Shown piece after piece: positions 35,669-60,338 of a stretch of DNA of 64,000 nt; positions within the stretch are counted from its first letter, which is position 1; every line of letters begins with the position of its first letter. The notes beneath the pieces were generated by a model. The model saw only the letters and a program-made list of their open reading frames with translations, did no database searches and was not told the DNA's origin. The DNA comes from Macrophomina tecta (Eukaryota > Ascomycota > Dothideomycetes > Botryosphaeriales > Botryosphaeriaceae), in assembly GCA_024180945.1 (NCBI GenBank), contig JAKSGN010000005.1, positions 1,860,001 through 1,924,000 of the forward strand, written 5' to 3'. Both the position numbers and the translations under genes were made by a program.

Positions 35669-36576
35669 GGCTCGGATACCGTATGCTTTGTCCTCCGAAC
35701 CGTAAGGGCTTGCCGTGCTGTGCTCGAGCTAATTGTGCATCTTAAATTTCTTTATAGAATGCCCGCCCCTTTTCCTGGGCACTTGCCATACGCAACTGAA
35801 GTACGCAACTACAACCTGGACGCCATGCCGCTGGGCGTGCTCCTCCAAGTCGAATAATACGATGAGGGAAGAATAGGCGGCGCGTCTCCTGGGCTTAGAA
35901 ACAAAACGCGTCATACCGCATGGAAGCCTTGATCATTATTCGATCATCAAAGGCCGAGGAACTTGCAGAAATAACGTACCGTAGGAATGCTTGGGCTCGG
36001 AGAATCGGCCGGAGAGTCGGCCTTAGTGAATTATATCCGCGAGGTCATTTACTGAGCGGTGGTAAGCTACTTCATTGTTTATTTCCTGCATACACCCCAG
36101 AATAGGGTCAGGTGTCATATGGAGAGGTATTTGCCTTTGTAGGTTTCCCCTCTTTTCCCTGTGCACTCTTCCCGTACAAGCAAGTGCAGAGTATCCGAGA
36201 GATATGCACTATCAATAGATATGCCTGCAAATTCGGCTTTAAGGCCGTCGGGTTCGGTACGAGGCAATGGTGCGACCCACTAGGAACCCGAAGGCGAACA
36301 GGCTAGGTTCGAACGCCGAAATGGCGACCAGCTGAAAAAGATTTACGCCAGCCCTTCTTCTGCATTCCGCGCCTGCTTCGTCTAAAAGTACATCGCCACT
36401 CTAGCATGGCTACTGTTTGAGAATCGGATACATTATTAAAGCGCGTCCATTTCATTTAAATACCCAGACTTACTATCATAAGCCAAAACCTTGTCGAAGA
36501 TGATATGGATAGGGTAGAAAAGGAACCAAGAAGTAGCTGATACACGATCGGCGGCTTTTGGGGTACAGCTGTGATG
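35669..36576. other. Intergenic
   Basis: 908 bp; no gene or repeat recognised. Confidence 0.4.
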
Positions 36577-38463
36577 TTATACTCGCCCTTTATTCCCGAC
36601 AAGGTGCTGGCGTCCAGTGATTGCCAACAGGCTGGTGAGCGCCAAAGTCAATGCTCCAGGCGTAATAATGAGAACATAACTCTTCGCCATGCTATGTACA
36701 ATGGCATGGATTACACGGTCCCGTACGTCCTTTTCCAGACTCCTGAGGTAATCTCGTCCAACACCGGACACAATGTTGAGAATAGGAGCATTCTCCGGCA
36801 GAATGTCGCCCAAAGCAATCTTAGCACGGTTCAAGAAAACAGTGTTGGCAATGCTCAAGGTGATGGCTGGGGCTGCGAGCTGTGCCCATGTGACGAGGCC
36901 GACAGCCGCTGGAATCATGGCGGGGCCGACAAACTCCTGAGCAGCATTAAATGGCATCTGAATGTATGCACCCGTACCTGTTCCCATGAGGACACTAAAG
37001 CCGTAGATCCTGGCCGTTGAGGTACGTTCATCCACGGTGAACATGGCGGAACCGCCGATGAGGACAAGAGCTCCACCATAGAAAAACCATGGTAGCTACT
37101 TGCCATTTGATGTTACTAACGTGCCACCGATAATGACCGTGCCGACCATCAGGGCAATAAAAGGTAAGTGATGGACTCCTGCCATCAGAGGGGACTCATC
37201 TAGGACATATTGGAAGCTTGGTTGCATGTTAGGCCCAGTAGATGTTTCCAAGGCTTTCAAACTTACTGGAGGGGGATGAAGTAGCATGGCAGGAAACAAG
37301 CTGTTGCGGAGCAAGCTTCGTTCAAAAATATGATCACAACATTGATGTTTTTCATCAACGCGAAAGGGAAAACCTTCTGGCGGATTCCAAACCCCGAAAG
37401 CTGTTGCCCAAGGAAAAGAGCGAACAGAACCCCACTGACCACGAAGAGCGCAATGACTCGACTGGAGCTCCACACGTAGGTGAGCCCACCAAAGCAAAGA
37501 GCCATAATGGATGCTGCGGTCGGACCAGCCAAAAGAGTGAGGCAGAGGAAGTCAATATCCTTAATGCGCTTATGAAACGCTTCGCCGGGACGGAGGTCCT
37601 TCGACGGGACGAGGAAGAGATAGACTGGAGCACACAGAGTCCCAATGAAGAGGTTGATGTAAAAGCCGAAACGCCAGCCGACACTGCTGATGGCAAATGC
37701 GCCCCCGATGACTGGCCCAAGCACAGTGCCTGCACCCCAAGTAAGACCGGGGACAGCCATGTAAAAAGGCCTCTCTTTCTCCGTCGTGGTGAGTGAGAGA
37801 AGGGTCAAGACACCCGTATACATCTGGAGGTAGAAGACCACGTTAGGTTCAGTCTCACCGCTGCATGAGGGAGGATTTACTCACGCCGCTGCCACCCACG
37901 CCACAGATAGCTCGGCCAGCTATGAGGGCATTAATGTTGGGTGCCCCTCCACAAAGAGCAGAACCAGCCTCGAAGATTATGATGCAAGTAATGAAGACAT
38001 ATTTGGCGTTAAACTCTCCGTACACCTGGCCCCTATGCCGCTGTCAGGGCTCTGAAGATCTGCGAGGTCTCCAACAAGGCAAAGATTACCAGGAGAGGAC
38101 AGTGGCTGCTGCACCGAGAAAAAAAAGCGACACTATTCCATGGCAGCTTTTCGATCGAGTGAAATTCTCTCACGAAGGTGGCATGGATATCGGCGACGAT
38201 TGTCCCGTCCAGCCCCTTCGTCTAATTAGTCCGCTGACTGGTGTCCACAGGAGCTTATGTACCACACTTACCCAGAGAAAAGTTACCGATATCAACGAAA
38301 GAACTACGAGTGCCCACTTCAAGCCATGAAAGTCTCTAGGCCGGTTGACAGGTCCCTCCGTGAGGCTTATGAACTCCTCAGAGGCATTTTCTGCGGCCTT
38401 GGCCTCAGAGTCCACGCCATCGGCGGACCGCATAGAAAAGCATTCAGACGTTTTCTTCTGCAT
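36577..38463 (-). pseudogene. MFS multidrug efflux transporter (DHA2-like), inactivated
   Basis: The coding order is recoverable from 38463 (MQKKTSECFSMRSADG) to 36577. TM1 is LKWALVVLSLISVTFLW, then an intron, then GLDGTIVADI. FHSIEKLPW is followed by a T8 run (38126-38119); with seven T's the frame would continue as LGAAATVLSW, but with eight it is broken. Next exons carry NALIAGRAICGVGGSG, YTGVLTLLSLTTTEKERPFY, PGLTWGAGTVLGPVIGGAF, which is the DHA family motif-C-like stretch, and GWRFGFYINL. After an intron at about 37270-37225 comes SPLMAGVHHLPFIALMVGTV. A TAG at 37098-37096 then interrupts NGK*LPWFFYGGALVLIGGS. The last block runs open to 36577. One frameshift plus one nonsense codon make it a pseudogene unless both are sequence errors. 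Relatives are plasma-membrane pumps, often exporting fungal secondary metabolites. Confidence 0.82.
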
Positions 38464-39715: not shown

Positions 39716-42700
39716 TCAACCGGTTGGATCAAAAACCTCCTCAATGTATCTCTCGCCGAGCGCGTCTTTGATGTCTCTCCCCAAGACGGCAGAAAGATTG
39801 CGAGCAAAGTCTTTGGCGGCCTCGGGTGAGGCACATACAAACACACGCGCGTTCTCTTCCTTGATCTTGAAAGCAATCCGATGCCGAACGCCGTCGGCGA
39901 ACATATTGTCTTGTGAACGAACCTTGCTCACGTTGCTTGGGGTCAAGAAAAGCATGTCCACCAGCCCCAGCTCGCTCGCTCGGTCCAGTGTGCCCGCAGC
40001 AACGTTGGTATCGTAGCCTTTGAAGCCGATGAACAAACTGATCGGGCCATACCGTGATCGCGAAGCCTCTGTCCCTCGCTGCGTACTTTGCGCGTCGAGG
40101 ATGCGAGCTTGAAGAAGGCTCCTTATCGGAGCTATCCCTGACCCAGTAGCAAATGCAATCATCGGAGATTCGTCCTCGATCAGCTCCGTGCTCGCGGGCC
40201 TGAAACGTATTCTCAACGAAGTGCCGCGCGGGGAGAATGTGAGGAATCTCTCGCTGAACAAGCCCCGTGGATGAGTCTGCACTAGAAGTTCCAGGACGTT
40301 TCCTCGATCATTCGACCTCCAGAAACGCTGCGAGGAAGCTACTGAGAAGGTGCGAGGCCGGATGAGGGGCATTGCGGCAAAAACCTCGCTCAAGCTCGTT
40401 TGCTTCCGCCAACCGGGCGGCAGCACTTTCAGCGCCTGCGGAAACGGCGTGCTCTTTAACATTTGTTGCTGCTCGAGATCCAAGTTCATTCGTGAGGTCC
40501 ATTGGATGTCAGTAAACGGTGCTTCCAGGTCCACAAGCTCGGCGACGAATTCCTGCGTGGTCAAATCATCAGAGAGTTTCAGATTCCTTCCAGTCAGGTC
40601 CATATAGGCCAGGACCTGTTCTACTTTGATCCTTCGGTTGGGGATGTAGGCGTCCACATGGCTCATTTCTTCGTACTTGGCGTCGCCGACGTCGAGAGTG
40701 ACATGCTTGATGCCTTTGATGTTGCTTGAGGAAGAAACAAGTTTTGCGGAGGTCGTGCTGGCTGCGAGGATCTCGAATCGGTGAGGAGGGTTTCCCTCAT
40801 TATTAAGCAGTATACGTTGTGGCCTCGGAGAGATGCTGCCATCAACGGCAAAAAGGTCGGAATGGACTGCGGCCCACCATGTGTTCAGCTGCTTCCAAGG
40901 CGGGATCTCCTTGTCTGTGTCGCCTTCGAAAAGTTTGAGGAGCGGACGGGCACCGCAATCTCTCAAGACTTGCTCAACCGAATAAGCAGCTCCATTGTAA
41001 GAGGTATTGTAAGAGCTGCTTCCGTTGCCGTATACGGCGAACCTAACTCCACTGAGCACTTTGGGAGCTTTTAATTTTCTCAGACATGCCCGGCCGTTGT
41101 AAGGTACCTCCCCACGTCCACAACTGCTTGCAATGATCAGAATTACGTCCCCTTCCTGAATTTCGCTCAGCTTCAGCGCATTCAATGTATCAAAGGGCTC
41201 CACTTTGAACTCTGCCGCGCTGTCAACACACCCACTGGTTGCGTAGCCATGAAGACGCCGCGCCAGCTTCTTTGCGACCGTTCCAGAGCTGCAATAATGT
41301 ACTCGGATGCTTTTCAAAGCCCGGGATGTCTGAGGAGCTGCATTATCCAGCCAAGCTCGGGCGTCTCGACTTCGCTGTGTCTCGACACCTATCGATCCTG
41401 CCTTCCTTCTCCAAGCCTTTATCGGGTCCTGGACATGTCTGCAGATCAGCGGTTTAGGTTGGTAGTTGGGTGAGCCGCCCCTGTGCCACAGCGGAACTAG
41501 ACTGCCTTGGGGAGGAGCCAGCCAGTATGGATCCGCTGGGAGACGGAATCCGTTTTCGCGTAAATGCTCATCATCAAAATTGGAGTACATGGAAGAGGCT
41601 GTCAGGGTGTCCGACATCCTAACTCCAGCTTGCTCGAAGGACCAATAAACGGCGAAGTTGAGCTCCGTCTGTGCGCGAGACTGCGTGGTGTGTTAGCTAG
41701 GTACCGCCATCGCACAGAGGTATTCCACTTGCCAACAGGGCAAATCTCTCGTATTCGGGTATATCGTCAAGATCAGGAGCGGAGCGGCGGAGTCCTAGCA
41801 CGTCCACAACCTGGGGAAGCATGTTATATCTCTCCCGATCCACGAAGTTGCGCACGCCAATCTCCGCATCCATAAACCAGCCTTGCGCGTTTCAGTAGAG
41901 AACCAAAGTTTCGCGCACTGATTGGATCTTACCCATGAACGGAGCAGCTGTGTATTGCACTCCACCGATGTCGAAGCCAAGCCTGCTCAACGCCGGTGAC
42001 GGTACCCAACGAAGTCCCAGCTTCTCAAATTGAAGCCCATAGTGAGGATGTTTGATATGGACAATTGGGAACATATATTGAGGGATAGGAGTGATCACAG
42101 GATCATCACCCTCCGCCATGGTGACAAGGGGAAGAAGGTCCCACTGTGTCCGAAAGGATGGAGGCTTCCAGCCGAGTTCGATAATGGCGTCTGTCAGCTC
42201 AGCATTCAGCGGGTCGCCGAGGATGGAGCCATCATCAATGCGATACTAAATCGTCAGTCTTCCGCTTGGCTCTTGAATCATGCATAATCAACTTACACCT
42301 GCAAAAGCGAGTATCTGATGGTTCCAGATCATAGGTCCCGTTTGACCGGGCTTGCGTGGAGGGAACACAAAGACTAGATAAGCATCGTCAGTCACAGAGT
42401 CACCGACTTCCTAATCAAACCGCCGATCAATTTCTCCAGACTCACCAGTGGGAAGTATGTCACCGCCGTTGAAAGCTTCACGTGCTTTTTCGAGCAGACA
42501 GGTGCCCATCTCTGCGCTGCTTGTGATATGCCGCAAATCACATAATCTGGCCGTGTAAGTGGTGTGACTGCTGGGAAGGTGCCGCAAGACTTACCTCAAT
42601 GACTTCCATTCACTTCTCATGATGCATTTTTTCGAATGTTTCCAGGCTAGCCTGATGCCATGCTCGAGTTCTGTAGTATTCTGCTCCCATGTACCAGCTA

Positions 42701-43187
42701 CGACAGCGTCTGATTCTCTTTCTCTCTTCTCGTTGAACTGACCATTGCGACGAGCTTCGGCAGGCTTTGATGACTGCTGAATCTCGTGGGCAACCTCTCG
42801 TTTCCGTCTTTGCAGCGCTTCATCGGACGAGATGATGCCGTCACGGCGGAGTTGATGGAGGAAATCATCCGCTTCGGCCTGCACAATGTTGATGGCACGA
42901 TCTCGGCCCACGCGAGCTTCATCTGTGTGCACCATCCGTCCACTCTGGCAAAACTTTGGTGTGCATCCCGTTGATGAGAGTAGCGGGTAGCGTTCGTCGA
43001 TTCTCTGAAATTCTTCCGCCGCCGTCGGTTTCTCGAACGAACCCGGAGCGAACGGACATTGAGCTTGTACTACAGGCTTGGAGTGGAGAGTTGTATTTTT
43101 TCCGTATGTAGCACCCCCAGCACGATCTTCTGGGAGGTGGGTCCGCCTTACAGAGCGTCTGCCGGCGCTGAATCTGTCCAGATCCAT
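39716..43187 (-). CDS. Nitric oxide synthase (oxygenase + flavin reductase), fungal
   Basis: Six exons: 43187-42595, 42546-42446, 42373-42297, 42245-41933, 41881-41733 and 41680-39716; 1065 aa. NOS converts L-arginine, O2 and NADPH to NO and citrulline. Oxygenase half: zinc-tetrathiolate pair CTPKFC (C75, C80, spacing C-x4-C as in animal NOS); heme-ligand helix AWKHSKKCIMRSEW (C188); PMIWNHQILAFAGYRI; FEKLGLRWVPSPALSRLGFD with GGVQYTAAPFMGWFMDAEIG (E368, arginine-binding Glu); TELNFAVYWSF; ADPYWLAPPQGSLVPLWH. A basic linker (IKAWRRKAGS) could bind calmodulin (inference). Reductase half: flavodoxin IRVHYCSSGT (about 536) and FAVYGNGSSSYNTSYNG; FAD motif RTFSVASS; NADPH site FATGSGIAPIRSLL. The first ATG after open frame is used; an upstream exon is not excluded. 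Intron five is GC-AG (GCAAGT donor); others GT-AG, 48-72 nt. The pterin-site Trp region reads YW rather than VW. Confidence 0.92.
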
Positions 43188-44592: not shown

Positions 44593-46545
44593 TCAGTCAA
44601 GGGGGCCGTATCGGAGTGGCGGCACAAAGTTCGCATGCGTCATTTTTTTGATGTACTCAGGAGGGCTTTGCATCACATCCTGCCCCTCCAAAAGGACTAT
44701 CTGTTGTCCAGCCTGTTTCAATCAGTGACCGTTTGTTTGGTGGCTAGATCACACACTTACCGCAAAGTGCTGAATACGATGGCAGTGCAGCATGCTCATG
44801 GCAGGAAAGGTGATGGTGTAACGGATCACCGTCCAGGATCCCTCTTCCGCTTCGAGCCGGGCACCATCTCGCAACGGCGGGTTGATCAGGTTGAAATTCT
44901 CTGGAGCTTCCGAGATGGCAGTAGCAACATCTGGCCAACGGAAGTAGCCCTTTCCTCTACCAATAATCCAGGCCTTGTGATTGTGTTTGTGGAAAGGGTG
45001 CATGGCGTATGCGCGGCTCTCGAAGATGATGTCTACGGTGGATCCATTCTTCATCCCCTGAATGGTTGTAGGGCCACGAGACTCTTCGTTCCACATAATA
45101 GGAGGCATCTGCTGGCGGAAGCCTTGGTGTGGCTCGCTCGACAGCATCCATGTGCTCGGGCCGGTGCGGTTTGATAAAAACCGAAACGTGTGATCAGACG
45201 TCGCTGGGGGTGAGCGCGGCGGAAAGGGGGCCAAATCGGTCATTTCATCCATCATGACACCTCCTTCAGTGATCATCCGCCCCAGCAGATCAATATGGGG
45301 TTTTGTTTCCGGTGCCAGCATAATACCGTCTTTGCGGCGTTCCTGCACACCGGGGTAGCGCAAGATGCTCAAGCCCGTAATCAATTGCTCCTCGGAAATG
45401 GACGACAGGCGGATGGCGTATTCCCCCGGCTTCTTGTCTAGCGGTACCAGGACACTGATCCTGTCGCCCATGTTGAGGTTTATTGCCTGCAGCCATAGGT
45501 CAGCACCGCTCAGTGCAAGTTCTCGCATTAACGTACCTGGACTTTTTTCGGCATGACAAAATCCCCGTCAGCTGCCACGATGATCATGTCGTGCTCGTCC
45601 ACCGCGATTCGCAGTTCATGGTGGGCTCCAGGGTGGATAAAGTTCATGTAGATATACTTCTCCCCTTCTTCGGCCTGAATGGTCTCGAAGTCGGTGGTAG
45701 TCTCGCGGCATTCTCTCTTGTTGGTGAACTCAGCGCCGACTGGAGGAGGAAGGCACCCAAGTGAATTCCTCCGACCCTCGGGATCGTATTTCTTGAAATC
45801 ATCTGGGCCAAGGCAAGTTGTCCTGCCCTTTCCATTCGTCGCGAGGGACGCAGAACATGCCGGAGCAATGCCTGCATCTCTGAAGCCCACAATCAGCACT
45901 TCCATTCCCTCATAGTTCCAGTCGGAAACCATGAGGTGTCTGGGATTGTCTTCGGCCGCGCGCATTGCTGCAACCTCTGCCGGGTCATCAGACGCAAGCT
46001 CATACGGACGGGGTCTCCAGGGGGCCGGTGCAATCCACAGCGGGCCTCGTTGGCCGTCCGCGAATGCGGGTCCAAAGTGGCCATGGTAGAAGTAGCTTCC
46101 AGTTTGGTTGGTGAGAGTAAACTCGTAAGTATACGAATCCCTGGGTTCAATGGGCCATTGAGTCACGCCAGGTACTCCGTCGTTCCAGTACTTGTCGACC
46201 TGATAGACACCGTGCCTGCTTTCCGTTAGTTGATTCTCCCAGTCCAGACAGACTTCACTCTGACCAATGCATAGTAGCCTCAATAAACATTTTATTGGTC
46301 ACAGTGACGCGAAGTGTGTCTCCTTCATATCCCCAGATCAATGGACCAGGTGTCTGGCCGTTGATAGTTAAGACACCGCGAGGGTTCCCGTCTGTCCATG
46401 TTAGCAGAGATACTATCACTTTGTTTCTTCGGGGACATCTACCTTGAGCCATCCAGCTTGCCTCAAGAGTCCAGTTATATTCACGTACCTGCCCGCCCAG
46501 CGCTGCCAGTACTTGAGGGAGGAGCAGCCATGATGCAAGCTTCAT
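44593..46545 (-). CDS. Secreted laccase-like multicopper oxidase
   Basis: Five exons: 46545-46443, 46391-46265, 46215-45537, 45486-44761 and 44712-44593; 584 aa. Introns 48-51 nt, all GT-AG. Signal peptide MKLASWLLLPQVLAALGG. Three cupredoxin domains with all copper motifs intact: MHWHGVYQ (about 75), FYHGHFG (H-x-H, about 122), HPFHKHNH (H-P-x-H-x-H, about 465) and LHCHRIQH (H-C-H-x3-H, about 533). Such enzymes oxidise phenols or metal ions at a type-1 copper and reduce O2 to water at the trinuclear centre. The C-terminus lacks a membrane anchor. Ascomycete relatives polymerise or couple polyketide and melanin-type phenols, or act on environmental phenolics; substrate is unknown here. It is divergent from a second oxidase-like gene at 47522, with 976 bp between starts. 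Confidence 0.92.
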
Positions 46546-47521
46546 TGTGGAGCGAGAAAAGAGTAGTCCAATCTGCAGAACTGCGAATGATCCAAAGAGT
46601 TGAGGGTTGAACAAATTGCAATCGCAGACTTCTTTGACATCGAAGCGGATTCTCTCATACCCCTACAAGAGGCGGGCGGCACAGCAGGTGCGAGCTCGGA
46701 CTGCGGAATGATGACAGCCCTCTTAGCGGGTCCAGAGCCTCCAGGCTAGGGCTGAAACCGCGACCAGGCTCCTGCGGGGGACGGAGCGGAAGCCGTCCAA
46801 ATATCCAGCCCGACAAGGAGCATCATCAAAAAAAAAAAAAAAAAAAAAAGAGCTTCGCTACTAGCACCCTTCAAATACGCTCAGGTAATTGGAGCAGTCT
46901 CCATAGCACACGGATGGTGTGACAGCAGTATACAAGATGCCAAGTTATTTAGTCAAGATTGACGGGGTTGGGCAAAGATGGTGAGGGTTAGCGTGAAGAA
47001 GGGACCAATTTACACCTGCCCTAGTCGGACCCAGAGTGCTCTGGAACCAGACTGTTTCCAAAAAGGGTGCAACGCAAAGCGGTCCAAGAAGCGGTAGGCA
47101 TCCGTGCGTTAGGCTCGGGCGGAGGCGGCGTTCACCTGTTAGCCCAGGGTCCCGTGCATCCTGGCCCGTGAGCCGCCTAAACACCGTCGCTCAACGCCAG
47201 ATCCGTTGTCCATCTGGACACGAATCATTACAGGGCTCTAGCCATGATACCGAGGCTAGATCTCCTGGCAGATAGTGTGTATCACCATGGCTTTCGAACT
47301 CAAAAATAGTATCGGTGGGTGGATTAGTGTGAAGACAAAAATAAGACCCAAAAAAAAGGGATATCGGTGATCAGTTCGTAATTCAGCATCACTAGCGGAA
47401 GGTCCCCGAAGACGGAATTGCTGGTCAACAGGAGCAAAGGCAAGCCCCCACATTTGCAGCTTTCTCCTCTTGCCAGCGGCACTTTGCAAACACCCTCAGC
47501 TTCTCATCGTTCAATTTCAGT
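46546..47521. promoter_or_regulatory. Shared upstream region of two divergent oxidase genes
   Basis: 976 bp between start codons at 46545 (-) and 47522 (+), a layout that could co-regulate the pair. It contains an A22 run at 46828-46849. No binding site is claimed. Confidence 0.45.
46828..46849. repeat. A22 homopolymer in the divergent promoter
   Basis: 22 A residues about 280 bp from the minus-strand start; possibly a nucleosome-excluding tract. Confidence 0.85.
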
Positions 47522-49872
47522 ATGGACTCCAAGTACGAAATCATTCCCTCTGCACCGGACATTACTCCAGATACGCCCAAGAAGAGGAACCTTCTCAAAG
47601 CCCTCTCATCCTTCTCTGCGGCCCTTCTCTGCGTTGGAGGAGTAGCCAAATACTATCTTCATCGGCCTGTTTTCGAATTTGACCGCGCTCCCAACAGTGC
47701 TGGCCATGCGCAGTTGAAGGGCCTCCCAGAGCGGGTCCAGGCCACCGTCAACTACAATTTGACAATATCACAAGCTTGGAGGAATCCAGGTATATTTCAG
47801 GCATTCCCCCTCACCTCCACGCCATTGACTAACGAGTGGACCAGATGGGGGACACTGGAGACCGCTGTTTGTGGGGAATTCGGAGTCTCCATTCCCGACC
47901 ATCAGTGCTCACGAAGGAGACATGGTGAATATCCACATCCACAACGATCTCGGTCTTCCAATTTCAGCACACTGGTACTCTTCCGGTCCCTGGAGTCTGT
48001 GGTTCCGTTTCTGCTAACTCCGCTGTAGGGTTGGCGTTCATCATAAAATGGGCGGCACTTGGAACGATGGAAGTTCCGGAGTTACCAGTTACCCGATTCT
48101 GCCAAGAGCCAACCGGACCAGCACCTTCAACACATCTGGTGACTGGGGCTTGAAGTGGTTCCTCGAACATACGTCAACGCCATCTGTAAGTATCAGTTCG
48201 CAGCTCGTCCAGCTTCACAAGAAGGTTGATTTACCAGTACTAATACACATGCAGGTGGACGGAATGTACGGGGCGATTTGGATCAGGCCGAGTGCGGAAA
48301 GAGAGCGGCCATACCACCTCATCTCAGAAGATCCACTCGACATTCAAGATATGATGGAAGCTGAAGAAAACCCTGCACATGTGACAGCTTACAATTACCA
48401 GCACCGGGAGATGCCGGGACTACTGGCTCAGCTGCAGACAGAAGGCTATGACCCATATTGTTTCCAGTCTATCCTTATCAATGGTAGGATTTTCTTTCTT
48501 TTTTTCGCGCGTAGGGAATGCGGTAGCTCACACTTGACAGGGAAGGGTCGCGTACACTGCAAACCGGACGATCTCAAGGACATTGACGGAAAACCCGTCG
48601 ACTCATATGGGTGTGTTGAGCAGCCCAGCGGTGCTGTTGCATATGATGAATGCAAACCTTCTGACGGGGATTACGAGGTATCTGCAAAGCAGGATGGCTA
48701 CGCAAAAGCGTCGGGATTAATTTATCGCAGATTATCGAGACATTGAATCGGCGGTGGATGATGATCAACATCGTTAACCCCGGCCTCGAGCATCCATTGA
48801 GGATTTCGATTGACAACCACCATTTCTGGATCGTGGCCAATGACGGTGGATTCATTGAGCCACAGAAGGTTCAGGTCAGCAGCAAATTTCCTTGCTCGAA
48901 CGTTGTTAGAGCTGTGAACAAAGTAGCTAACGGGATGTGTGCAGGTCGTGACATTGACAAATGCAGAGTGCGTGACGATCCTGATCAAACTGGACCAGGA
49001 ACCGCAGGACTACGCTATCAGGTTTCACGCGCTGAGCCGACTGCAATTTTTACAAGGCTATGCTATTCTGCGGTACCCGGTAAGTCGGCATTGCCTTCCA
49101 TTGTTGCCGCATCGAGCAAGAGTTAACAGGCCGTCTCAAGCATCGTCAAACAGGCCGCCAGCTTGGTAATCCAATGCCGCGTCCAAGCCAAGACCTGTCT
49201 GCAATGGAACTCGACGGTACGCCCAAGGAGGGCGTGGTGCTCCAAGATAAGTCCAAACAGCACCCGTATCCCCCGGTAAAGCCACAGAAAGATGCCGATA
49301 TCACTCTTCGTTTCCGTGCGACCGGCGCCCCAGACCCGTATAATCCGTATATCACGAACTGTTCCCTCAATGGATCTCCCTGGCAGATTTTCCGAGGATT
49401 GCGGGAGCCGCTCTCACTCCACCCCAATGATACGGTTGCGGAGCCCAATCCAATCGTGAAGGGGTTACCGATCGGCAGCGTTGTGGACATAGTCGTGGAA
49501 AACGACCTTCCGGTGGCCATTCCGATGTACAAACACAACAACCCTACCTTCCATCTTGGGTCCGGAGAGGACAAGTTCGAGTGGGAAAACGTCGCCGAAG
49601 CCAAAAAGGCGCAACCTAGTCTCATCAACCTCGAAAACCCACCGCTCGGCTATCTGCACGATCTGCCTGCCGGAGGGTGGCTCGCCCTGCGCTGGAAGAT
49701 CACAGAACCTGCCATGACCATGTTCCATGCGTTCCGGGTCCGCTACTTTGTCCTTGGTATGCAAGTTCCCATGTTCGAAGGTGATGATGCCTGGCCGGAG
49801 ATTCCGGATGCCGTCCGGGACCAGCCGCATGTGAACTTTGAGGTTCCCGAACATATGGGTATTTTCGACTAG
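47522..49872 (+). CDS. Copper-less multicopper-oxidase paralogue, type II membrane anchored
   Basis: Eight exons: 47522-47789, 47845-47974, 48029-48185, 48255-48483, 48541-48677, 48731-48874, 48945-49079 and 49162-49872; 636 aa, fully open. All introns GT-AG, 53-82 nt. N-terminus: about 20 polar residues, then KALSSFSAALLCVGGVAKYY, a single membrane anchor. The cupredoxin scaffold is clear: SPFPTISAHEGDMVNIHIHN, VDGMYGAIWIRP, NIVNPGLEHPLRISIDNHHF, PQDYAIRFHALSRLQFLQGY and LGYLHDLPAGGWLALRWK. Yet each copper motif is replaced: HWHG by HWVG (about 133), WYHSH by WFLEHTS (about 180), HPxHxH by IPMYKHN (about 520), and HCHxxxH by HAFRVRY (about 587). The parallel with the neighbour is direct (for example AIRFHALS against AIRLSSIS). 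I infer a structural or partner role rather than oxidase activity. Confidence 0.85.
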
Positions 49873-50151: not shown

Positions 50152-51191
50152 TCAGTCAACGTCAGGAACAGGCAAACCGTTCCACAACTTCATCTTCCTG
50201 CCTTGCGCCTGCATAGCCTGCATAGCCTTCTCCTCTCGCAAATTCCTAGCCTCCTCGTCCGTTACCAAGACGAAATCATAGGTCATCAGCTTACCGCCCT
50301 CCCTGACGCCGTATTTCTTTGCCTGCTCCGCATTCACGGTGCCGAGGTCCACCAACAGAGTCTCTTTTACTCCGAAGACGGCATCCGACGTCTCGTAAGG
50401 GTCGTTCCGTAGATATAACGCACTGCGCCCACGTCAGCACACGTCCGACACCCACCTTGCGGGTGCACTTACGTGATGAGGTGGTCGAATCCCTGCTTCG
50501 CGAACATGAAATGCATATGGCTGGGACGGTAGGGATGTCTCTTCAGCTGCTTCAACAGCTTGCCCACCGGGCCGTCATGTGGAATGGGATACGGCACCGG
50601 CACGATGGCCTTGAACCAGAAAACGCCGTCCGCGTCGCTCGACAGCACCGCCCGGCCGTCCGGGAGCGTGCGGTTCGCGTACTGCACGTCGTAGAAGCCC
50701 TTGGAGTCGGTCTCCCACACATCGATCTTGACGTCCTCGAGCGGCCGGCCGGCGGTGTCCTTGACGGTGCACAGGACGAGGCAGGGCTCGCCGTCCGGGT
50801 CGTGGGAGATGACGGAGCCGTTGGCCTCGGCATGGGCGTCGTGGGTGTGGAAGGGGCCCAGCACGGTGCCCTCGGTGCTCGCGGGCGGCTTCGGGTGGTC
50901 GATGCTGTCGACGAGGAGCGAAAGGCCGATGATGTCGGAGAGCAGGATGAATTCCTGGCGCACGTCGCTGCAGATCTGGCCGACTTCTGTGAGGAACTTG
51001 ATGCCCGCCATCCACTCGTCGGTGCTCAGCCGCGTTTCGCGGGCGAAGTCGTGGGCGTGCACGACCAGCCGCTCCAGGACATACTTGAGGCGCGGGTCGG
51101 GGCAGCGCGAGTTGATCAGGTGGACGTTCTCGGTGATGTTGTCGATCGTGAGGTCCTTCAAGGGCGGAATGTCGACCTCAGAGGGATCCAT
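50152..51191 (-). CDS. Intradiol ring-cleavage dioxygenase (catechol/hydroxyquinol 1,2-dioxygenase type)
   Basis: Exons 51191-50473 and 50422-50152; 329 aa; 50-nt GT-AG intron. Start at MDPSEVDIPP; the frame upstream has no ATG. A non-heme Fe(III) enzyme that opens catechol-type rings between the hydroxyls to give cis,cis-muconate or maleylacetate. An N-terminal helical dimerisation domain comes first (LKYVLERLVVHAHDF; EFILLSDIIGLSLLVDSI). The catalytic beta-sandwich follows, with STEGTVLGPFHTHDA, DVWETDSKGFYDVQY (ligand Tyr), VPYPIPHDGPVGKLL (second ligand Tyr) and RPSHMHFMF (the two His ligands). The YPIPHDGPVG stretch is typical of catechol/hydroxyquinol rather than protocatechuate dioxygenases. 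No signal peptide, so intracellular. It adjoins the quinate genes and fits breakdown of aromatics derived from them. Confidence 0.9.
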
Positions 51192-51693
51192 CGTGCGCGC
51201 GGTCTTCGGCGGAGAGGGCAACTGGCACTGTCGAGGGCGGGCTGGAAGGGCGGCAACGGTGCGAGCGGCGGGGTGGAAAGGCTCGGATGGGCGTACGGCG
51301 GGCGGAGGGTGCGTACTAATAGGCGCGGTCCTACAGGTGCGGCGCGACCCCGCGATCGTCCAGCCCCCGCATCAAGGACGTCGGAGCTGGTGGTCGGTAG
51401 GTGGAAAAGCAGTGGGACAGAGTGATATCCGAGGCGGGCGGGCGCGCAGGGTGACGAGACCATGACCAATTGCTGATGAATCCAGCTCGATGTTTTTGCT
51501 ATACAAATAGGAGAGAGCGCTGCAGGCACCGCCCGGGCGAGAACCCCACCCCCGAGCGCCCGCCTTGCCCCGCCGGAAGCCTTCCGCCGTCCCACAGGCA
51601 AAGTCGTGGCCGGTACCCACCTTGCTCTGCACCATGCTATGCCATGCCATGCCATGCCATGCCCTGCCCTCCACTTCCCGAGTCCCGGTGAAA
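51192..51693. other. Intergenic with a pentamer repeat
   Basis: 502 bp upstream of the dioxygenase. Contains the CCATG array at 51635-51662. Nothing else recognised. Confidence 0.4.
51635..51662 (+). repeat. CCATG pentanucleotide array
   Basis: Four to five tandem CCATG units (ATGCCATGCCATG...), just 3' of the dehydroquinase gene. Confidence 0.8.
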
Positions 51694-52146
51694 TTACGCC
51701 TGGCTGCGCAGCTTGAGGTGCCTGGCCGCAAACTCAATTGCCGCCGTGTATCCGTACGTGCCCAGGCCGCAAACGACCGCCTCGGCCTTGTCGCTCAGGT
51801 AGCTGTGGTGGCGGAAGGGCTCGCGCTTGTGGATGTTGGTGACGTGCACCTCGACGAAGGGAATGTCCACTCCGAGCAGCGCATCGCGCAGCGCCACGCT
51901 GGTGTGTGTGAAGGCGCCGGGGTTGATGACAATGGCATCCACCTTGCCGCGCGCCTCGTGGATGCGGTCCAGGATGGCGCCCTCCCAGTTCGACTGGTAG
52001 GCTTCCAGCTCGATTCCCAGCGCTGCCGTCTGCTGCCTTGCCTGCTCCACCACCATTGGCAGCGTCGTCGATCCGTACAGATGGGGCTCGCGGGTGCCCA
52101 GCAGGTTGAGGTTGGCCCCGTTGATGAGGAGGATGCGCTTCGCCAT
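51694..52146 (-). CDS. Catabolic type II 3-dehydroquinase
   Basis: Single exon, 150 aa, the usual size for type II enzymes. It removes water from 3-dehydroquinate to give 3-dehydroshikimate, the second step of quinate breakdown (qa-2 in Neurospora, qutE in Aspergillus). Start at [17 protein letters not shown] (52146); an upstream in-frame ATG 11 codons away is less likely. Catalytic landmarks: GTREP with the conserved Arg, LYGS with the active-site Tyr, [33 protein letters not shown], and [19 protein letters not shown] containing the catalytic His. The usual GPNLNLLG reads GANLNLLG here. In fungi the shikimate-pathway dehydroquinase is type I, inside the AROM protein, so a free type II enzyme marks the catabolic route. 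Confidence 0.95.
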
Positions 52147-52687
52147 GGTGGATGCGTCGAGCCGGCCGTGGTACTGCAACGAGAGGAGCGCAGGGCGGAA
52201 TCTGGCGCAGAAACAGTGCTCGAGAGATGCTCCATAAAAGCCGGCAGCCCTGAGGCGCCCCCGCCGAGGATCGCTGCCCGAATTCTGCGGAGTGAGCGAC
52301 CGGCTAAATCCTCTTCCGCCGTGCCCATCCGCGTCCTCGGCTTAGCCGGGGCACACTCGCTGCGAGGGAGAAGCGGAACCCAGAGCTGTGTACCAGGAGA
52401 GCGAGGGCCGCCAGGTCCCCGGCGGCTCGGGAGAGGCACAATGACGAGGGCCCGCTCGAAAGGGCTGCGGGTGCTGGCATGGCAGGGCACGCAAGGGCTC
52501 TGGGGCGGATGATGGTCGGCCAGAGCAGCCCGGCTTTTAGCGGCACATGGACACCGGCGAGTCTGCCAGAGCCGCCGCCTTGTCTCGCGCAGATAACAGC
52601 TGCTTCTCGCATCATCCTCAACCGCCATACCACCACCCTGTTGCTACTCCGCCGCCTAACATCTAGACACGCTGAGCTGCCCCAATC
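52147..52687. promoter_or_regulatory. Divergent promoter, dehydroquinase / QA-X-like gene
   Basis: 541 bp between starts at 52146 (-) and 52688 (+). In Neurospora and Aspergillus such regions carry the GGRTAARYRYTTATCC activator site; I do not see an exact match by eye. Confidence 0.4.
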
Positions 52688-54613
52688 ATGCCCGCAGACC
52701 TCACAGAGCACGAGCTGGACGAGATCTACTCGTTCGCCGTCCAGCTCGGCAAAGACGCGGGCAAGATGCTGCTCGACGCCGCCATGCTGAGGTGTCAGGG
52801 CGGAGAGCAGAAGGAAGCAGCTCACGCGGAGAAAATGAACGCTGTTGACCTTGTTACCCAAACTGATGAAGGTAAGGTCCCTGCCGCCCACGGCGGCCAA
52901 GCGTCCTGGCGAGTCGGGCACGTGCAGCTTTGTCCGTCTTCCGGCGCCGCTGTCACTGCAATTTGCTTGCTTGTCATTGGTCCGGGCTCCAATCTGGGCT
53001 TGCTTTGGCTGCGCTGCACGGGTTATTGAATGACGGAAGACAATTGGCCAGCCTGATCCATATCTGCAATGACAATGCTCTGCTCTGTCGTCGTCCTCCA
53101 TCTCATCATTGCATTTTGAGCGTGCCGCAAAGTGCATTGGCTAAGGAGCATTGTATAGACGTCGAAGCCTTTGTCAAGAACAGTATCACCAAGAGATTTC
53201 CCTCCCATAAGTCAGTCCGCCAGCACCACCGCCCACTCCGATCAGCAAGTCGTAGTCATTGTTTCCCCCTGCTTACTCTTCAGCCAGGTTCATCGGCGAG
53301 GAAACGTATTCCAAGGGTTCTTCGAAGGACTATCTCGTGGATGAAGAGCCCACATGGATCGTGGACCCGCTGGATGGTAGCCTCCTCCTTCCATTATCCA
53401 GACCATCAGCCGGCTTATGATCCCCTGCAGGAACGGTGAACTACATCCATCTCTTCCCCATGTTCTGCGTCTCGATCGCCTTTGTCCATAAGCATCTCCC
53501 AACCATCGGTGTCATCTATGCTCCTTTCCTAAACCAGCTCTTCACCGCTTGTCGCGGTCGCGGCGCTTGGCTCAACGAAAGTCAACAGCTCCCGCTTATC
53601 CGCAACCCCATCGCCCCAATGCCTGCGCAGTCGCCTTCCGGTTGTGTGTTCAGCTGCGAATGGGGAAAGGACCGGCGGGACAGGCCGGAGGGCAACATGC
53701 ACCGAAAGGTGGAGAGTTTCGTGAACATGGCGGCCGAGGTCGGTGGGAGAGAGGGCAAAGGCGGTATGGTTCATGGAGTGCGTAGTTTGGGAAGGTGAGT
53801 GATGCCCCGCTACGCAGGCGCAGGCTTCTCACTGCTCCTCGCTTGTGCCTCTGCTACACAAGCGCAACTCCGGGCAGACTGGGGCAGTCTGACCACTGGT
53901 GAAAATGCGAGAAAGGAGGAGGAGGAGGAGGAGGAGGAGGAAAACGCAGAAGCGGAACACGACTTGCTGACCACGCCACATCAACGCAGCGCCACCCTGG
54001 ACCTCGCATACACGGCCATGGGCTCGTTCGATATCTGGTGGGAGGGCGGATGTTGGGAGTGGGATGTTGCAGCCGGCATTTGCATCTTGCAAGAAGCCGG
54101 TGGACTTGTCACGACGGCCAATCCGCCCAAGGATCCTGCTACTGCACCCATCGAAGATGTAAGGCTCGGTTCTCGGCTTTATCTTGCAATCCGGTAAGTT
54201 CTTCCACCTTATCCCAACAACACCCCTAAAGGGCTGGTTCCAGTCAGCCGTCGCGTCTCTCAAGCGGTGTGGAGATGAAGGGGGGCAAGGTGCAAGGGCG
54301 TGGGCGGCACGAGTGTCAAGTGTAAAGGTTTATCCGTTACGGATTGCCTTGCTCGCGTTGCCCTATCATCCCCCGCTCGGCGCCTCGTCATGGCCTCTTT
54401 GGCTGGTCCACCTGGGCCTTCGCTGCTGGGAGGAAATCACTTGTTGGGCCCGCGGATTTGCTTCCAGACGCCCATCTCGCTGACGCCTTGATTTCCATCA
54501 GACCTGCCGGACCATCCGAGACTGGCGAAAGCGGTAGGCAGGGACAAGAGCGTACTGTCAGGGAGGTTTGGCGGAGGGTCAGGCATCTCGACTACACCAG
54601 GCCTGGCGCATGA
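52688..54613 (+). CDS. Inositol-monophosphatase-like protein of the quinate cluster (QA-X/QUTG type)
   Basis: Six exons: 52688-52871, 53159-53210, 53288-53376, 53431-53794, 53990-54193 and 54502-54613; 334 aa. Introns are 54-308 nt, three of them long for this genome (287, 195, 308). Metal-site motifs of the IMPase superfamily are present: TQTDE joined to [18 protein letters not shown] (E-E metal ligands); [14 protein letters not shown] (DPxDGTxN); and late [18 protein letters not shown] (WDxAAG). Qa-x/qutG are standing members of fungal quinate clusters whose substrate is not established, so phosphatase activity is inferred. The sixth exon ([11 protein letters not shown]...HLDYTRPGA) depends on the acceptor at 54501. 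A GGA trinucleotide run lies in intron 4 (about 53917-53940). Confidence 0.9.
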
Positions 54614-55015
54614 GGACTCTGCCAGGGCTCTCTCCACATGTATACATGGTGCTAGAAAGCAGTGAATGATACTTGCATGATCTCTACCTCTATTTAATGG
54701 CTTTGCCGTTACGGCGTGATTCGTGATGCACTCCGCTCCATCAGTCTGCCAATTTGCCCTGGACTGTTGCTCTCCCTTTCTCCAAGGTGTTGGTCTGGGC
54801 TTTTTTCCAGACTGACCAATCTCCGACGGTGATGGTTCCGACATCCATCATGCCCCATCGCTGCAGCTAATACCGCCGGCCCTAATGGCTCAGATTGGTC
54901 TCGGCTCACGTCTGCTTCGCCCCTTCGGCGCCCCTTGCCAGCCAGAACTGACCAAAAGCTGCATTAACTAGCTCGAATCCGCCCTATTCCCCGCTTTTCC
55001 AAGCACCGCGATGAA
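54614..55015. other. Convergent intergenic spacer
   Basis: 402 bp between the 3' ends of the QA-X-like gene and quinate dehydrogenase. Nothing recognised. Confidence 0.4.
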
Positions 55016-56326
55016 CTAGTGGGCGTGGCCATGCACTCCATTGGCCCCATTTGTGCCGTTGGGTCGGCCATTGGTCGGATGACCGTTCGCCAACTTGTTC
55101 GTCTCGGCCAACTTGGCGGCGATAACCGCCTTGACCTTCTCCACCGGTAACTCTGATACGTTCTTACCGGTCCAGTACTTATCCTGCGACGAAGGTGGCA
55201 AGTCAGCCGTCTGTGGCGTCTGGGGGGAAAAGTGCAGATCCGAGGGCAAGATTAGAGGTGGAGATATTCGGAGATAAAGACACCTCCAAACTCCCTGTGG
55301 GAAAGCATCTCCGGCCACGAGCACGTGAGGGTGATGTGGTGATGTTTTTTTTTTTTTTTTTTTAGGACAGGGGAATTGTGGAAGAGAGGAATCGTAACGT
55401 ACCTGTTCCAACCCCTGATAAATCATCGCCTCGGTCCCGAGAATAACCTCCCAGCCAGCCTTCTCCGCAATCTCCGCAATCTCGGTCCAGGGAGAAGGGT
55501 GGTAGCACATCTCGAGCAGAGCACCCCTGTGCTCCTTGTTGAGCAGCGTCTCCAGGACCGCACGCGCCTGGATCTCCTTATCTGTCTTCGGCGGAAAGTT
55601 GGGCACACAAGCGACCACCGCTCCAGGACCCTCCAGCACTTGCGCCTGCTCAACAGTCTTCACGTGGATGAGACCTTCACCAAAGCCGCGCGCCCTGCAT
55701 TCGTTGATTACCGCTTCGACTTCGGCATCGTCGCGGTTCACAATGTAGATTGAGGTAGCCTTCATCCACTTGCGCAGCGCGTAGACGGCAGAGCGCGCTG
55801 CACCACCGCCTCCCACGACAACGCCGGGGCGGTTGTGGAAGCTCGCGTCGGCGTCTGAAATGTTTTGGTAAAAGGCGTCGCGGATGCCAACGACGTCGGT
55901 GTTTGTGCCGGTGAAAATGCGCTTGCCGGTCTCGGGATCGGTACGGATGAAGAGGGTGTTGCAGGCGCCGACTTCGCGGCCTTCTTCCGTGATGTCATCG
56001 AGGTGTTTTAGGATAGCTATTTTGTGTGGCATGGTCACGGAGGCGCCTGCTTGGTGTCAATCAAACAACTCTCCTCTGCACCGTTGGCCGCCGGGCTCGC
56101 ACAGCCGGGAGCGGTCCGGAGGTGCGGACTCACCGTAAAATCTGGGGTCTTTTATCCTCTCAAGGAAATCGAGCATATCTGTTGAGTCGAGGGGAAGTTG
56201 TTCCCAGTTCAAGCCAATGCCGTCGTATACGGTCTGGTGAAGTAACGGGGACATTGAGTGGGCAATCGGATGGCCAAACAGATATCCGATGCGCTCGCGG
56301 TCGGGAGAGGGAACGGTGATCGTCAT
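55016..56326 (-). CDS. Quinate (shikimate) dehydrogenase, catabolic
   Basis: Exons 56326-56134, 56046-55403 and 55183-55016; 334 aa. Introns 87 and 219 nt; the second contains an A-rich tract. It oxidises quinate to 3-dehydroquinate with NAD (qa-3/qutB role). The shikimate-dehydrogenase fold is clear: [18 protein letters not shown] with the substrate Ser pair in [14 protein letters not shown] with the catalytic Lys; [15 protein letters not shown] with the catalytic Asp; and the Rossmann loop [17 protein letters not shown]. The second strand ends NRDD, fitting NAD over NADP, as inferred. [13 protein letters not shown] joins [18 protein letters not shown]. The tail is Asn/Gly-rich ([14 protein letters not shown]) and probably disordered. 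Divergent from the permease at 57194. Confidence 0.94.
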
Positions 56327-57193
56327 AATGAAGGATAGGGTTTCACAGGGAGAGGATGCCTGCGGGATGCGATGTGGTGATCACAGAGTAGGTGTATAGC
56401 GTAGGTTCAGCTCCGAAATGATTGAAAGAAGATAGAGCGGATTGAAATCCAGAGTCAGTGGAAGAGAGAAGAGCCGGGCATTTGAGGGTGCGGAAAGTCG
56501 AGTTCGCGCGGTGACAGTGCTTCTCCACAGATCCGAGAAGATGCGCAGGCCGCCCGCTGCTGTCACGAAAGGCAAATCGGCTTACGCTATGGTCGCAACT
56601 CCGAGCGCTGGAAATGCACGTCGAGGGCAGGCAGTGGCGTTGGCGTTGGGCTGGCGGCGTGGGGGATGCGTAAAGATTCATCCATCGGCAGTTTCCAGCC
56701 AGTGTGGAGCGGCGCAATGATTCTTTCAGCAACCGAAGCCGACCAGACGCCTGCCAACAGGGGCGCCAGTCGACGCGGGCCTGATTGGCCTTGCAGCCAG
56801 GCCCGTCTAGTGCCAAACGCCCCGAGGAAGTTTTCTCTTCCCCACAACCCAACGCCCCGGATAGCCTGTCAGTCCCCAGATCCGGGGACGCGTCCCTGTC
56901 ATCCACCATGCATCTTGGCCTCCCGGCGCCCACTGCGCCCGCACACTGATAAATAGTCCTCCCTCATCGGCCATCACTCCCCTGTTCCATCTCTGTCCTC
57001 CTCGCCATTTCCTCCCCTCCTCCTCCTCCTCCTCCTCCTCCTCCTCCTCCTCCCCCTCTCAACCCATTGCCCAAAGCGGTTGAAGGGTTTTCTCCTGTCC
57101 TGGCCCCTCTCCGATTGCCACTCCGTCTCCTCGCGTTCCCCCGACGCAGTCGCATTCATCCCTCTGCGGGTTAGGGCCATCACTCCGGCCGCA
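56327..57193. promoter_or_regulatory. Divergent promoter, quinate dehydrogenase / quinate permease
   Basis: 867 bp between starts at 56326 (-) and 57194 (+), including the TCC array at 57015-57052 close to the permease start. Co-induction by quinate is expected from family knowledge; no activator site was found by eye. Confidence 0.45.
57015..57052 (+). repeat. (TCC)n trinucleotide array
   Basis: About 12 CTC/TCC units, 140 bp upstream of the permease ATG, in a pyrimidine-rich leader. Confidence 0.85.
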
Positions 57194-59230
57194 ATGGGTG
57201 TCCTTGCGCTTGTCGAGGATAGGCCGACGCCGAAGGCTGTCTACAACTGGCGCGTCTATGCCTGCGCCACCATCGCCTCGTTCGCATCCTGCACCATTGG
57301 CTATGACAGTGCTTTCATCGGCACAACCCTATCCCTGCCGTCCTTCGTGGACGAGTTCAAGTTCGAGGAGATGAGTGCCTCGCATCTGGCTCTCGTCAAG
57401 GCCAACATTGTCTCCGTCTACCAAGCCGGCGCTTTCTTCGGCTCTCTCTTCGCCTACGTCAGCAGTTACTTCTGGGGTCGTCGCATTTCTCTGCAGCTTT
57501 TCTCATTAATCTTCATCCTGGGTGCTGGTATGATGCTGGGCGCAAATGGCGACCGTGGCCTCGGTCTCATCATCGGTGGCCGTGTCCTCGCCGGCATCGG
57601 CGTTGGCGGCGCCTCCAACATGACTCCCATCTACATCTCCGAGTTGGCTCCTCCCGCAGTGCGCGGTCGCCTTGTCGGTATCTACGAGGCAGGCTGGCAG
57701 ATTGGCGGTCTCGTCGGCTTCTGGATTAACTACGGTCTTGATGAGACTATGGCCCCGAGCCACACTCAGTGGCTCATCCCCTTCGCCGTTCAACTCATCC
57801 CCGCCGGCCTCTTGATGATTGGCGCGCTCTGGCTGCGCGAATCTCCCCGCTGGCTGTTCCAGAAGGGCAGGCGCGAGGAGGCCATGAAGAACTTGTGTTG
57901 GATAAGGAAATTGCCGGCTGATGATCTCTACATCGTCGAGGAGGTTGCTTTCATCGATGCAGCCCTTGAAGAGCAAAAGGCCACTATTGGTCTCGGCTTC
58001 TGGAAGCCTTTTCAGGTAAGCGTTTCACCGTCAGTCATGCGTTAGGTGGAGGGGTGTGTTGGAAGTTCAATGCCACTGTTGGGTAAAACTTCGGCAATGC
58101 CGATGATGAACTTCCGGGACACCTCCACCCATAAACGGCCAGCAGAATAAAATGCGCCTGCGGAATGCATTCTTCCTATGCTTCGGCCCTTGCTAAATAT
58201 ACATGAATCTTGGAACTTTTACTAATTATACATAAAAGGCCGTCGGGCGCTCGCGCAAGGTGCAGTGGCGCTTTTTCCTCGGTGGCATGCTTTTCCTGTA
58301 AGGACGTCTTCTTAATTATTGATGAATTGAATGCTAAAAGAGGCCTTAGTCTTCAGAACGGGTCCGGAATTAATGCCATTAACTACTATTCACCAACGGT
58401 ATTCAAGTCCATCGGCCTCAACGGTACCAACGCCTCCTTCCTTACCACTGGAATTTTCGGCGTGGTTAAGACCGTTGTTACCTTCCTCTGGCTGTTCTTC
58501 CTCGTTGAACAAGTTGGCCGTCGCCTCATGCTGATGATTGGCTCCATCGGTGGCTCGGCCTGCATGTGGTTCATCGGAGCTTATATCAAGCTCGCCGGAG
58601 TCTCTTCCAGCACTGCATCCACAAACTCTGGAAAAGGCCTCAGCGGGGGAGGAATTGCGGCTATGTTTTTCTTTTATCTGTGGACTGCCTTCTACACTCC
58701 TTCTTGGGTGAGTTTCCATGCTCCGCACCTTCCCGCAACAGAACATCCACCCCCCTGAAATCCAACCACCACAACACCTCAACCTTCCGCACCCTATTAT
58801 ATATTATTCCATGCTGATTTCCTCGCAGAACGGGACGCCCTGGATATATAATAGTGAAATGTTCGATACGAATACCCGTTCTCTGGGCCAGGCATCCGCT
58901 GCAGCCAATAACTGGTTCTGGAATTTCATCATTAGCCGGTTCACGCCCCAGATGTTCCTAAAGATGGAGTACGGTGTATACTTTTTCTTCGCATCTCTCA
59001 TGATTCTCTCTGCAGTCTTTGTTTACTTCCTCCTTCCAGAAACGAAGGGAGTTCCCTTGGAGGCGATGGATCGCCTCTTCGAGATCAAGCCCTCCGGCAA
59101 GGCCCACGCTATCATTATGAAAGAACTTAGGGAGCAGGAAGAAAACTTCAGACAGGATGCCGAGGGTGCTGGCCTCACTGCACAGAAGACCAAGGAGGAA
59201 TTCATCGAGAAGGTGGACAGCAATGTGTAA
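57194..59230 (+). CDS. Quinate permease (MFS sugar/quinate transporter)
   Basis: Exons 57194-58015, 58239-58297, 58350-58707 and 58829-59230; 546 aa, similar to Neurospora QA-Y. A 12-TM plasma-membrane H+ symporter that imports quinate. Motifs: IGYDSAFIGTTLSLPSF (TM1); YFWGRRISLQLFS, the loop 2-3 motif; GGRVLAGIGVGGASNMTPIY; ISELAPPAVRGRLVGIYEAG; RESPRWLFQKGR; the conserved QNGSGINAINYYSPT; and LLPETKGVPLEAMDRLFE near the end. The second-third exon joint gives LFLLQNGSG where relatives have a Trp before QNG; the acceptor at 58349 is the only phase-correct choice I found. Start at MGVLALVEDRPTPKAVYNWR, which matches the family N-terminus. Induction with the neighbouring genes is expected. Confidence 0.94.
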
Positions 59231-60009
59231 GGGGGGTTAAAGGGTAGGGCGTAGTGAACCGCGGAGGGAATGGACGAGATCAGCGTTTAGGGCGCACCTA
59301 CTTTTGTTTAATTGTTTTGATTACGATTGTGAATGCTACGGAGGATATTCCATAGCATAACGATAGAGATACCTCCTCAAACCACAACCAATGTGGCAAC
59401 GATGATATCAATGACTACTTCAACACCAAGATACAGTCGTTTTCTTAATCCGGTGCTTTCCCACCCCCGCAGTACCTCTTTCCCGAAGATGAGAATCACG
59501 GAGCCGGTCACCCCACCGAATCTACATCGGGTTGAGAATTCATCGAGGTGAACGTCAAGTTGCACAAAATGTTGCTGGTTCATCCCTACTCGGACGCACT
59601 CGGAACTAGAAACCTTGATGTGTCAGCACACGATTCACTCTCTGAGACGTTTTTAGCTCCATGCCCTTCCGTTAAGAGCGTTTCTCATCTGGCCTCTTTC
59701 CGGATTTCTACACCAAGTTCACGCTATCTCACTTATTTCACTCGTTTCATCGAATCAATTCGCCGGTTCTCTACCCTTCATTCAAGGATCATTCTGTCGT
59801 TGTTACGCTATTCACCGTGACGAAACACCTGCCTCCGATTCCGCCTCTTACCAAAGTAAGCTTTTACTTCTCCCGTATGTTTGACTGGCTTGGGATGTTG
59901 TTTGTGTTCCGTCCTATGGAAGGATTCGGGTCCTGTTTGATGCTCGCCTGCGCTACCATCACTGACTTGATATGGATGATGTGTTATTCTCTTATGATTC
60001 CGCACAGCT
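59231..60009. other. Intergenic / transposon boundary
   Basis: 3' flank of the permease and DNA bordering the copia element. Nothing recognised. Confidence 0.4.
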
Positions 60010-60252
60010 GAACCTTTGAAATTGTGTTGAATTTGGGTGAGTGAAGAGTAGTGAGGTCAGAAAGAGAGTAGATTCTGCCTGTCTCCTGAGAGGGAGGTAG
60101 GTATGCTTTGCTTATATACATAAATGAGTGCTTGAATAACCGAGGAGAATAGAAGCCGATATTGCTATCCGAAGCTTGTGAAGATGAGGAGTAGTGAGGA
60201 GGTGGCAAAGAGTAGATGCTGATCTGTAGCAATAAGGCAAAATAGTCTGACA
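60010..60252 (-). repeat. Putative 3' LTR of the copia element
   Basis: Just downstream of pol a purine tract (GTGAAGGGGGTG, 60264-60253 on the minus strand) precedes TGTCAGAC at 60252, a normal PPT-to-LTR junction starting TG. Inside is a TATA-like TATATAAG near 60118-60111. The other end (a CA) is uncertain, near 60010-60018. Confidence 0.5.
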
Positions 60253-60338
60253 CACCCCCTTCACGACGTGTACGCTTGGGAGGGTCGTGATAGTAGAAGC
60301 AGCGTCGAGTGTACAATAAAAGCAGTAGAGAATAGTGG

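Follow-up and report, generated by a model that had tools for sequence, protein, structure and literature searches.

A nitric oxide synthase gene with six exons

The 64-kb stretch analysed here (the window; positions 1,860,001 to 1,924,000 of contig JAKSGN010000005.1) stems from the 54.1-Mb genome of the fungus Macrophomina tecta, assembled in 37 contigs, and carries on its minus strand a gene for a nitric oxide synthase (NOS) whose ATG lies at 43187 and whose stop codon ends at 39716 (Table 1). A first-pass annotation made from the sequence had placed a complete NOS gene at 39716..43187, and these coordinates proved exact: the six exons join into 1065 codons plus stop, with zero internal stops, and the predicted mass of the product is about 119 kDa. 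Very probably, this is one gene encoding one 1065-amino-acid enzyme that would make nitric oxide (NO) from L-arginine, with splicing, catalysis and dimerization predicted from the sequence.

The N-terminal half of the product matched the Pfam family NO_synthase (PF02898) over residues 159-480 with 304.4 bits (E 1.3e-90; cut-off 22.7). A search with this profile had been proposed as a check in the first-pass annotation, with a missing match counting against a NOS, and the strong match settles that point in favor of the gene. When the oxygenase model was run against the whole genome exon by exon, matches occurred at a single place only, within the window. The zinc pair (Cys75 and Cys80 in GCTPKFC), the heme-ligating Cys188 (in KKCIMR) and the substrate-binding Glu368 (in GWFMDAEIG) are conserved in the alignment; a heme cysteine, a substrate glutamate and a zinc pair are features of the NOS family, the mammalian enzymes included. 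The oxygenase active-site residues are conserved in nearly all aligned rows, and the position following the conserved Arg372, Asn in the window NOS, is split evenly between Asn (59) and Asp (59) among 118 rows. The zinc pair would be expected to mediate dimerization.

Table 1. Coordinates of the NOS gene and of neighboring features in the window.
Feature	Position	Strand	Basis
NOS exon 1: start codon, zinc pair Cys75/Cys80, heme ligand Cys188	42595..43187	-	gene model, alignment
NOS intron 1, GT-AG, 48 nt	42547..42594	-	gene model
NOS exon 2 (oxygenase)	42446..42546	-	gene model
NOS intron 2, GT-AG, 72 nt	42374..42445	-	gene model
NOS exon 3 (oxygenase)	42297..42373	-	gene model
NOS intron 3, GT-AG, 51 nt	42246..42296	-	gene model
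NOS exon 4 (oxygenase)	41933..42245	-	gene model
NOS intron 4, GT-AG, 51 nt	41882..41932	-	gene model
NOS exon 5: substrate Glu368 in GWFMDAEIG	41733..41881	-	gene model, alignment
NOS intron 5, GC-AG (GCAAGT...GCAG), 52 nt	41681..41732	-	gene model
NOS exon 6: oxygenase end, variable linker, FMN domain, FAD/NADPH domain, stop	39716..41680	-	gene model, Pfam, fold
MFS-like gene, apparent in-frame stop	~36570-38020	-	Pfam on piece 37264-37880; remainder read from translation
Multicopper oxidase, HGH, HKH and HCH motifs	44749-46662	-	Pfam, motif search
Second multicopper-oxidase-like gene	47396-49872	+	Pfam; no H-x-H copper motif in the three open frames viewed

A fused reductase half with an altered FMN loop

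Both halves of the protein lie in one open frame and are recognized by Pfam and by fold, which bears out the earlier proposal of a eukaryotic-type oxygenase fused to a reductase. Behind the oxygenase domain, Pfam Flavodoxin_1 was matched with 43.8 bits (E 3.7e-11; cut-off 25), the domain expected to bind flavin mononucleotide (FMN). Structure comparison assigned a diflavin reductase fold to the reductase half, and the module for flavin adenine dinucleotide (FAD) and reduced nicotinamide adenine dinucleotide phosphate (NADPH) was recognized by its fold and motifs. The best full-length solved match, in both sequence and fold, was syNOS of Synechococcus (PDB 9q05), a 1468-amino-acid chain with an oxygenase plus an FMN-FAD-NADP reductase, in which the match runs from residue 477 onward; the oxygenase and reductase folds of mammalian nNOS, eNOS and iNOS match the window NOS as well. 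Several results weigh against the proposed enzyme: Pfam gave no FAD or NAD domain match in the window NOS protein, the whole-model TM score for exon 6 was low (about 0.4), as was that of a stand-in compared with syNOS (TM 0.30, root-mean-square deviation 33), and the FMN phosphate loop has the non-standard form YCSSGT, so that FMN binding is not assured. In syNOS, by contrast, this loop reads SETGT and the outer aromatic residue is the F of STFGNG; the window NOS differs in both. The first-pass annotation had called all heme, arginine and flavin motifs intact, a description that fits the heme, arginine and zinc residues but not the FMN phosphate loop and the outer aromatic position.

We counted these features in the window NOS and the 120 listed matches. 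The FMN loop is present in 119 rows, 114 of which have Cys at the third loop position (Cys541 in the window NOS); the commonest form, C-S-[SA]-G-T, occurs in 57/119, the Gly is kept in 104/119, and T-G-T survives in seven (P0019, P0024, P0103, P0107, P0112, P0114, P0117). At the outer FMN aromatic position, 120 rows carry T (85), A (22), C (6) or other residues (7), and none an aromatic one. Since most fungal rows carry the same change, we dropped the idea that the altered loop reflects plain decay of the window NOS. Elsewhere in the same genome, searched on both strands, six of nine other flavodoxin-domain loci have the loop in its standard form, G-[ST]-x-[TS]-G; the motif used demands that loop, so these six are positive finds only, and L005, L011 and L013 stayed unmatched.

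Across 119 rows, the linker between oxygenase and reductase proved hypervariable both in its length (46-115 residues; 56 in the window NOS) and in its sequence. Animal NOS enzymes possess a long regulatory C-terminal tail, whereas the window NOS ends four residues beyond its terminal aromatic residue, and 117 of 118 rows have tails of 0-11 residues. Compared with mammalian NOS, the fungal rows have no long tail and seem to lack a conserved calmodulin linker helix, and their FMN loop differs. Judged from these sequences, the variable linker and the short tail would make an animal-type calmodulin switch less likely.

Relatives of the window NOS

The protein search scored 7992 candidates and yielded 288 matches at E<=0.001, of which 120 were listed. 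The earlier statement that animal-type NOS genes are known from only some ascomycetes is therefore outdated; the matches extend to the mushroom Collybia, and we take the named listed rows to belong to Dothideomycetes, Sordariomycetes, Eurotiomycetes, lichen fungi and that mushroom. The best match listed was the NOS of Neofusicoccum parvum (P0001, 1056 amino acids), which aligns with 100% of the query at 71% identity; that of Botryosphaeria dothidea (P0004, listed at 792 amino acids) covers 75% of it at 74% identity. In a tree built by a quick method from 57 rows (the window NOS and 56 of 240 proteins), in which 21 of 54 inner branches stayed open, these two are the nearest rows, with no difference in kind from the window NOS seen; it joins Botryosphaeria and Neofusicoccum (support 98) and then Zasmidium (98), a grouping that looks like ordinary descent. 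A long branch separates the fungal from the bacterial rows, although the bacterial rows do not form one side of any branch.

Two other relatives deserve mention. In the oxygenase tree, the NOS proteins of two Collybia mushrooms (P0061, P0082) group with rows that come mostly from lichen fungi (support values 93 and 83), which makes a transfer between phyla possible. The NOS of Hirsutella minnesotensis (P0050) comprises 1581 amino acids with two extra Pfam domains (PF27041, PF27039), which may reflect either a genuine fusion or an error in the gene model.

Catalysis, cofactors and the possibility of uncoupling

The chemistry that links NADPH, flavins, heme and arginine is established for the NOS family. 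In the window NOS, hydride from NADPH would pass to FAD and on to FMN in the C-terminal half, the electrons would then reach the Cys188-ligated heme of the oxygenase half, where L-arginine, bound by Glu368, would be oxidized to citrulline and NO. With less weight, we infer that this electron flow may not be gated by calmodulin or an animal-type tail, that control may be exerted via expression or splicing, and that the pterin site may be served by tetrahydrofolate rather than tetrahydrobiopterin.

The genome offers leads on this last point. Two models of PTPS, searched exon by exon against the whole genome, gave zero matches; an intron-cut gene could escape such a search, and in prokaryotic controls 9 of 14 were detected. 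GTP cyclohydrolase I was found as two pieces and a Pterin_bind domain as one, the latter in fungi being that of dihydropteroate synthase. This combination fits folate rather than biopterin synthesis, and the canonical biopterin route looks absent from the genome that holds the NOS gene. A 423-amino-acid open frame with a globin-domain match may encode the usual NO-removing flavohemoglobin.

Published observations weigh against parts of this scheme. Tetrahydrobiopterin is reported in some ascomycetes, calcium is involved in one fungal NOS-like activity, and in Magnaporthe the NOS-like candidates were not the NO source, so that fungal NO need not come from a NOS (all as given in PMC4778047); a strong calmodulin site is predicted in the published oxygenase open reading frame (ORF) of Macrophomina phaseolina (PMC4160249). 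In the literature searched on cofactors and regulation of the M. phaseolina NOS, we found nothing beyond PMC4160249.

The changed FMN loop, the missing outer aromatic and the lack of PTPS matches to either model also raise the possibility of an intact-looking but uncoupled enzyme, in which poor FMN or pterin supply would lead to a leak of superoxide or to a slow NADPH oxidase instead of NO synthesis. We regard this as unlikely, but it fares best among the alternatives. The oxygenase active site is conserved in nearly all rows, and folate can be used by bacterial NOS enzymes; furthermore, NO in M. phaseolina is reported to be lowered by L-NAME (PMC4160249).

Intron 5 and the question of one gene or two

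Intron 5 is of the GC-AG type, a known splice type that is possibly less efficiently spliced; a CTAAC motif upstream of its 3' end presumably acts in a branch-point-like role. Across this intron, the spliced product reads PEYERFALLSRAQTELNFAV and aligns ungapped with PEYERLALLSRAQTELNFAV of Neofusicoccum. Among the 40 of 121 aligned rows that were viewed for this comparison, the exon 5-6 junction reads LALLSRAQTELNFAV in P0001, P0002 and P0004, and FALLSRAQTELNFAV in the window NOS. We tried all joins of exon 5 to the reductase with donors at 41790-41691, introns of at least 40 nt and an exon start no further than 41641; all nine that keep the frame use a GC donor, and none uses GT. One alternative GC join equals the GCAAGT donor in local alignment score (431 each) and loses 16 residues kept in relatives, another scores 421 versus 431 and loses three such residues, while the GCAAGT join retains all residues that relatives keep.

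The NOS gene is already on record, as two pieces. A report from 2014 (PLoS One, PMC4160249) states that M. phaseolina, the charcoal-rot fungus of crops, makes NO, that this is blocked by L-NAME, and that the NOS-like sequences of strain MS6 are spread over two ORFs: EKG20706.1 holds the flavin domains, and K2S718, next to it on the upstream side, holds the oxygenase domain. The report argues that two separate domains can reconstitute the enzyme. The separate ORFs recur in a review (PMC4778047), and M. phaseolina has been classed as NOS dependent (PMC10889981). EKG20706.1, annotated as 'Flavodoxin/nitric oxide synthase' and taken to be our row P0003 (624 amino acids), derives from the same gene as the window NOS, with 615 of 624 reductase residues identical (nine changes), in keeping with a very close relationship of the source fungus to M. 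phaseolina. K2S718 was absent among the 120 matches listed in each of two protein searches (candidates of about 243-772 and about 117-372 amino acids).

Two separate genes, whose oxygenase and reductase proteins associate in the cell as published, would accord with the MS6 annotation (PMC4160249) and with retention of intron 5, which ends the NOS frame after 422 residues. This arrangement is nevertheless very improbable. The MS6 reductase protein starts at a residue equivalent to Met442, 30 residues into exon 6, and includes the end of the oxygenase domain, as the Pfam oxygenase match extends to residue 480; the same exon 5-6 junction lies within a single protein of the relatives. Because the junction is ungapped and all open joins tried use a GC donor, we rejected the two-gene arrangement. 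The data instead indicate a single NOS gene in M. phaseolina, with an unusual GC-AG intron that would be spliced in the cell. A gene finder restricted to GT donors must split the gene at intron 5, and such a split probably underlies the MS6 annotation.

Neighboring genes

Pfam was run on 20 selected ORFs of the window. A P450 with its heme motif lies about 7 kb from the NOS gene, with carboxylesterase and MFS-like genes in between and the oxidase genes on the other side. Further away (50469-58045), genes of a catechol-type dioxygenase, a dehydroquinase II, a shikimate dehydrogenase-like protein and a sugar-type transporter resemble a gene group for the catabolism of aromatic acids or quinate, and two long open frames at 59984-62488 on the minus strand, rich in S, T, N, Q and K and free of Pfam matches, are perhaps an AT-rich repeat.

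The P450 and its companions recall bacterial NOS enzymes that supply NO for nitration by a P450, and the mining of bacterial clusters with NOS as a guide has been published (PMC10831120). That the window NOS serves a secondary-metabolite cluster is highly improbable, however, as no polyketide synthase, nonribosomal peptide synthetase or terpene core was recognized among the 20 ORFs. The first-pass annotation had spoken of several decayed accessory genes; the apparent in-frame stop of the MFS-like gene and the oxidase-like gene without a copper motif in the three open frames viewed agree with this, whereas the nearer multicopper oxidase and the P450 keep their motifs. Least probable of all is that the NOS gene is itself decaying, as these two neighbors may be, given its 1065 codons without internal stop or frame break, its 71% identity to Neofusicoccum over the whole length, nine changes in 624 residues relative to MS6, and its retained active-site residues.

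Implications

One may ask, with considerable reserve, whether fungal NOS enzymes form a class of their own. Such a class would combine, in a single polypeptide, a complete reductase in disguise with a folate-run pterin site; it would lack both the calmodulin switch and the regulatory tail, and its FMN loop would be remodeled about an almost invariant Cys (Cys541 in the window NOS) whose modification by NO could slow the enzyme. In the window NOS gene, the GC-AG intron at the oxygenase-reductase border could provide a further point of control by splicing. Titles and abstract openings of the open-licence PMC papers listed in our searches contained neither a single-gene model nor a rebuttal of the loss of the FAD domain claimed for fungal NOS. 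Our analysis suggests two corrections to the published picture, both resting on computation. On sequence grounds, the M. phaseolina NOS would be one enzyme rather than two proteins that need to meet, and the analysis speaks against the loss of the FAD domain claimed for fungal NOS. Both claims steer the study of fungal NO synthesis, for which the window NOS provides a testable prediction: NO would be synthesized on folate and without calmodulin.
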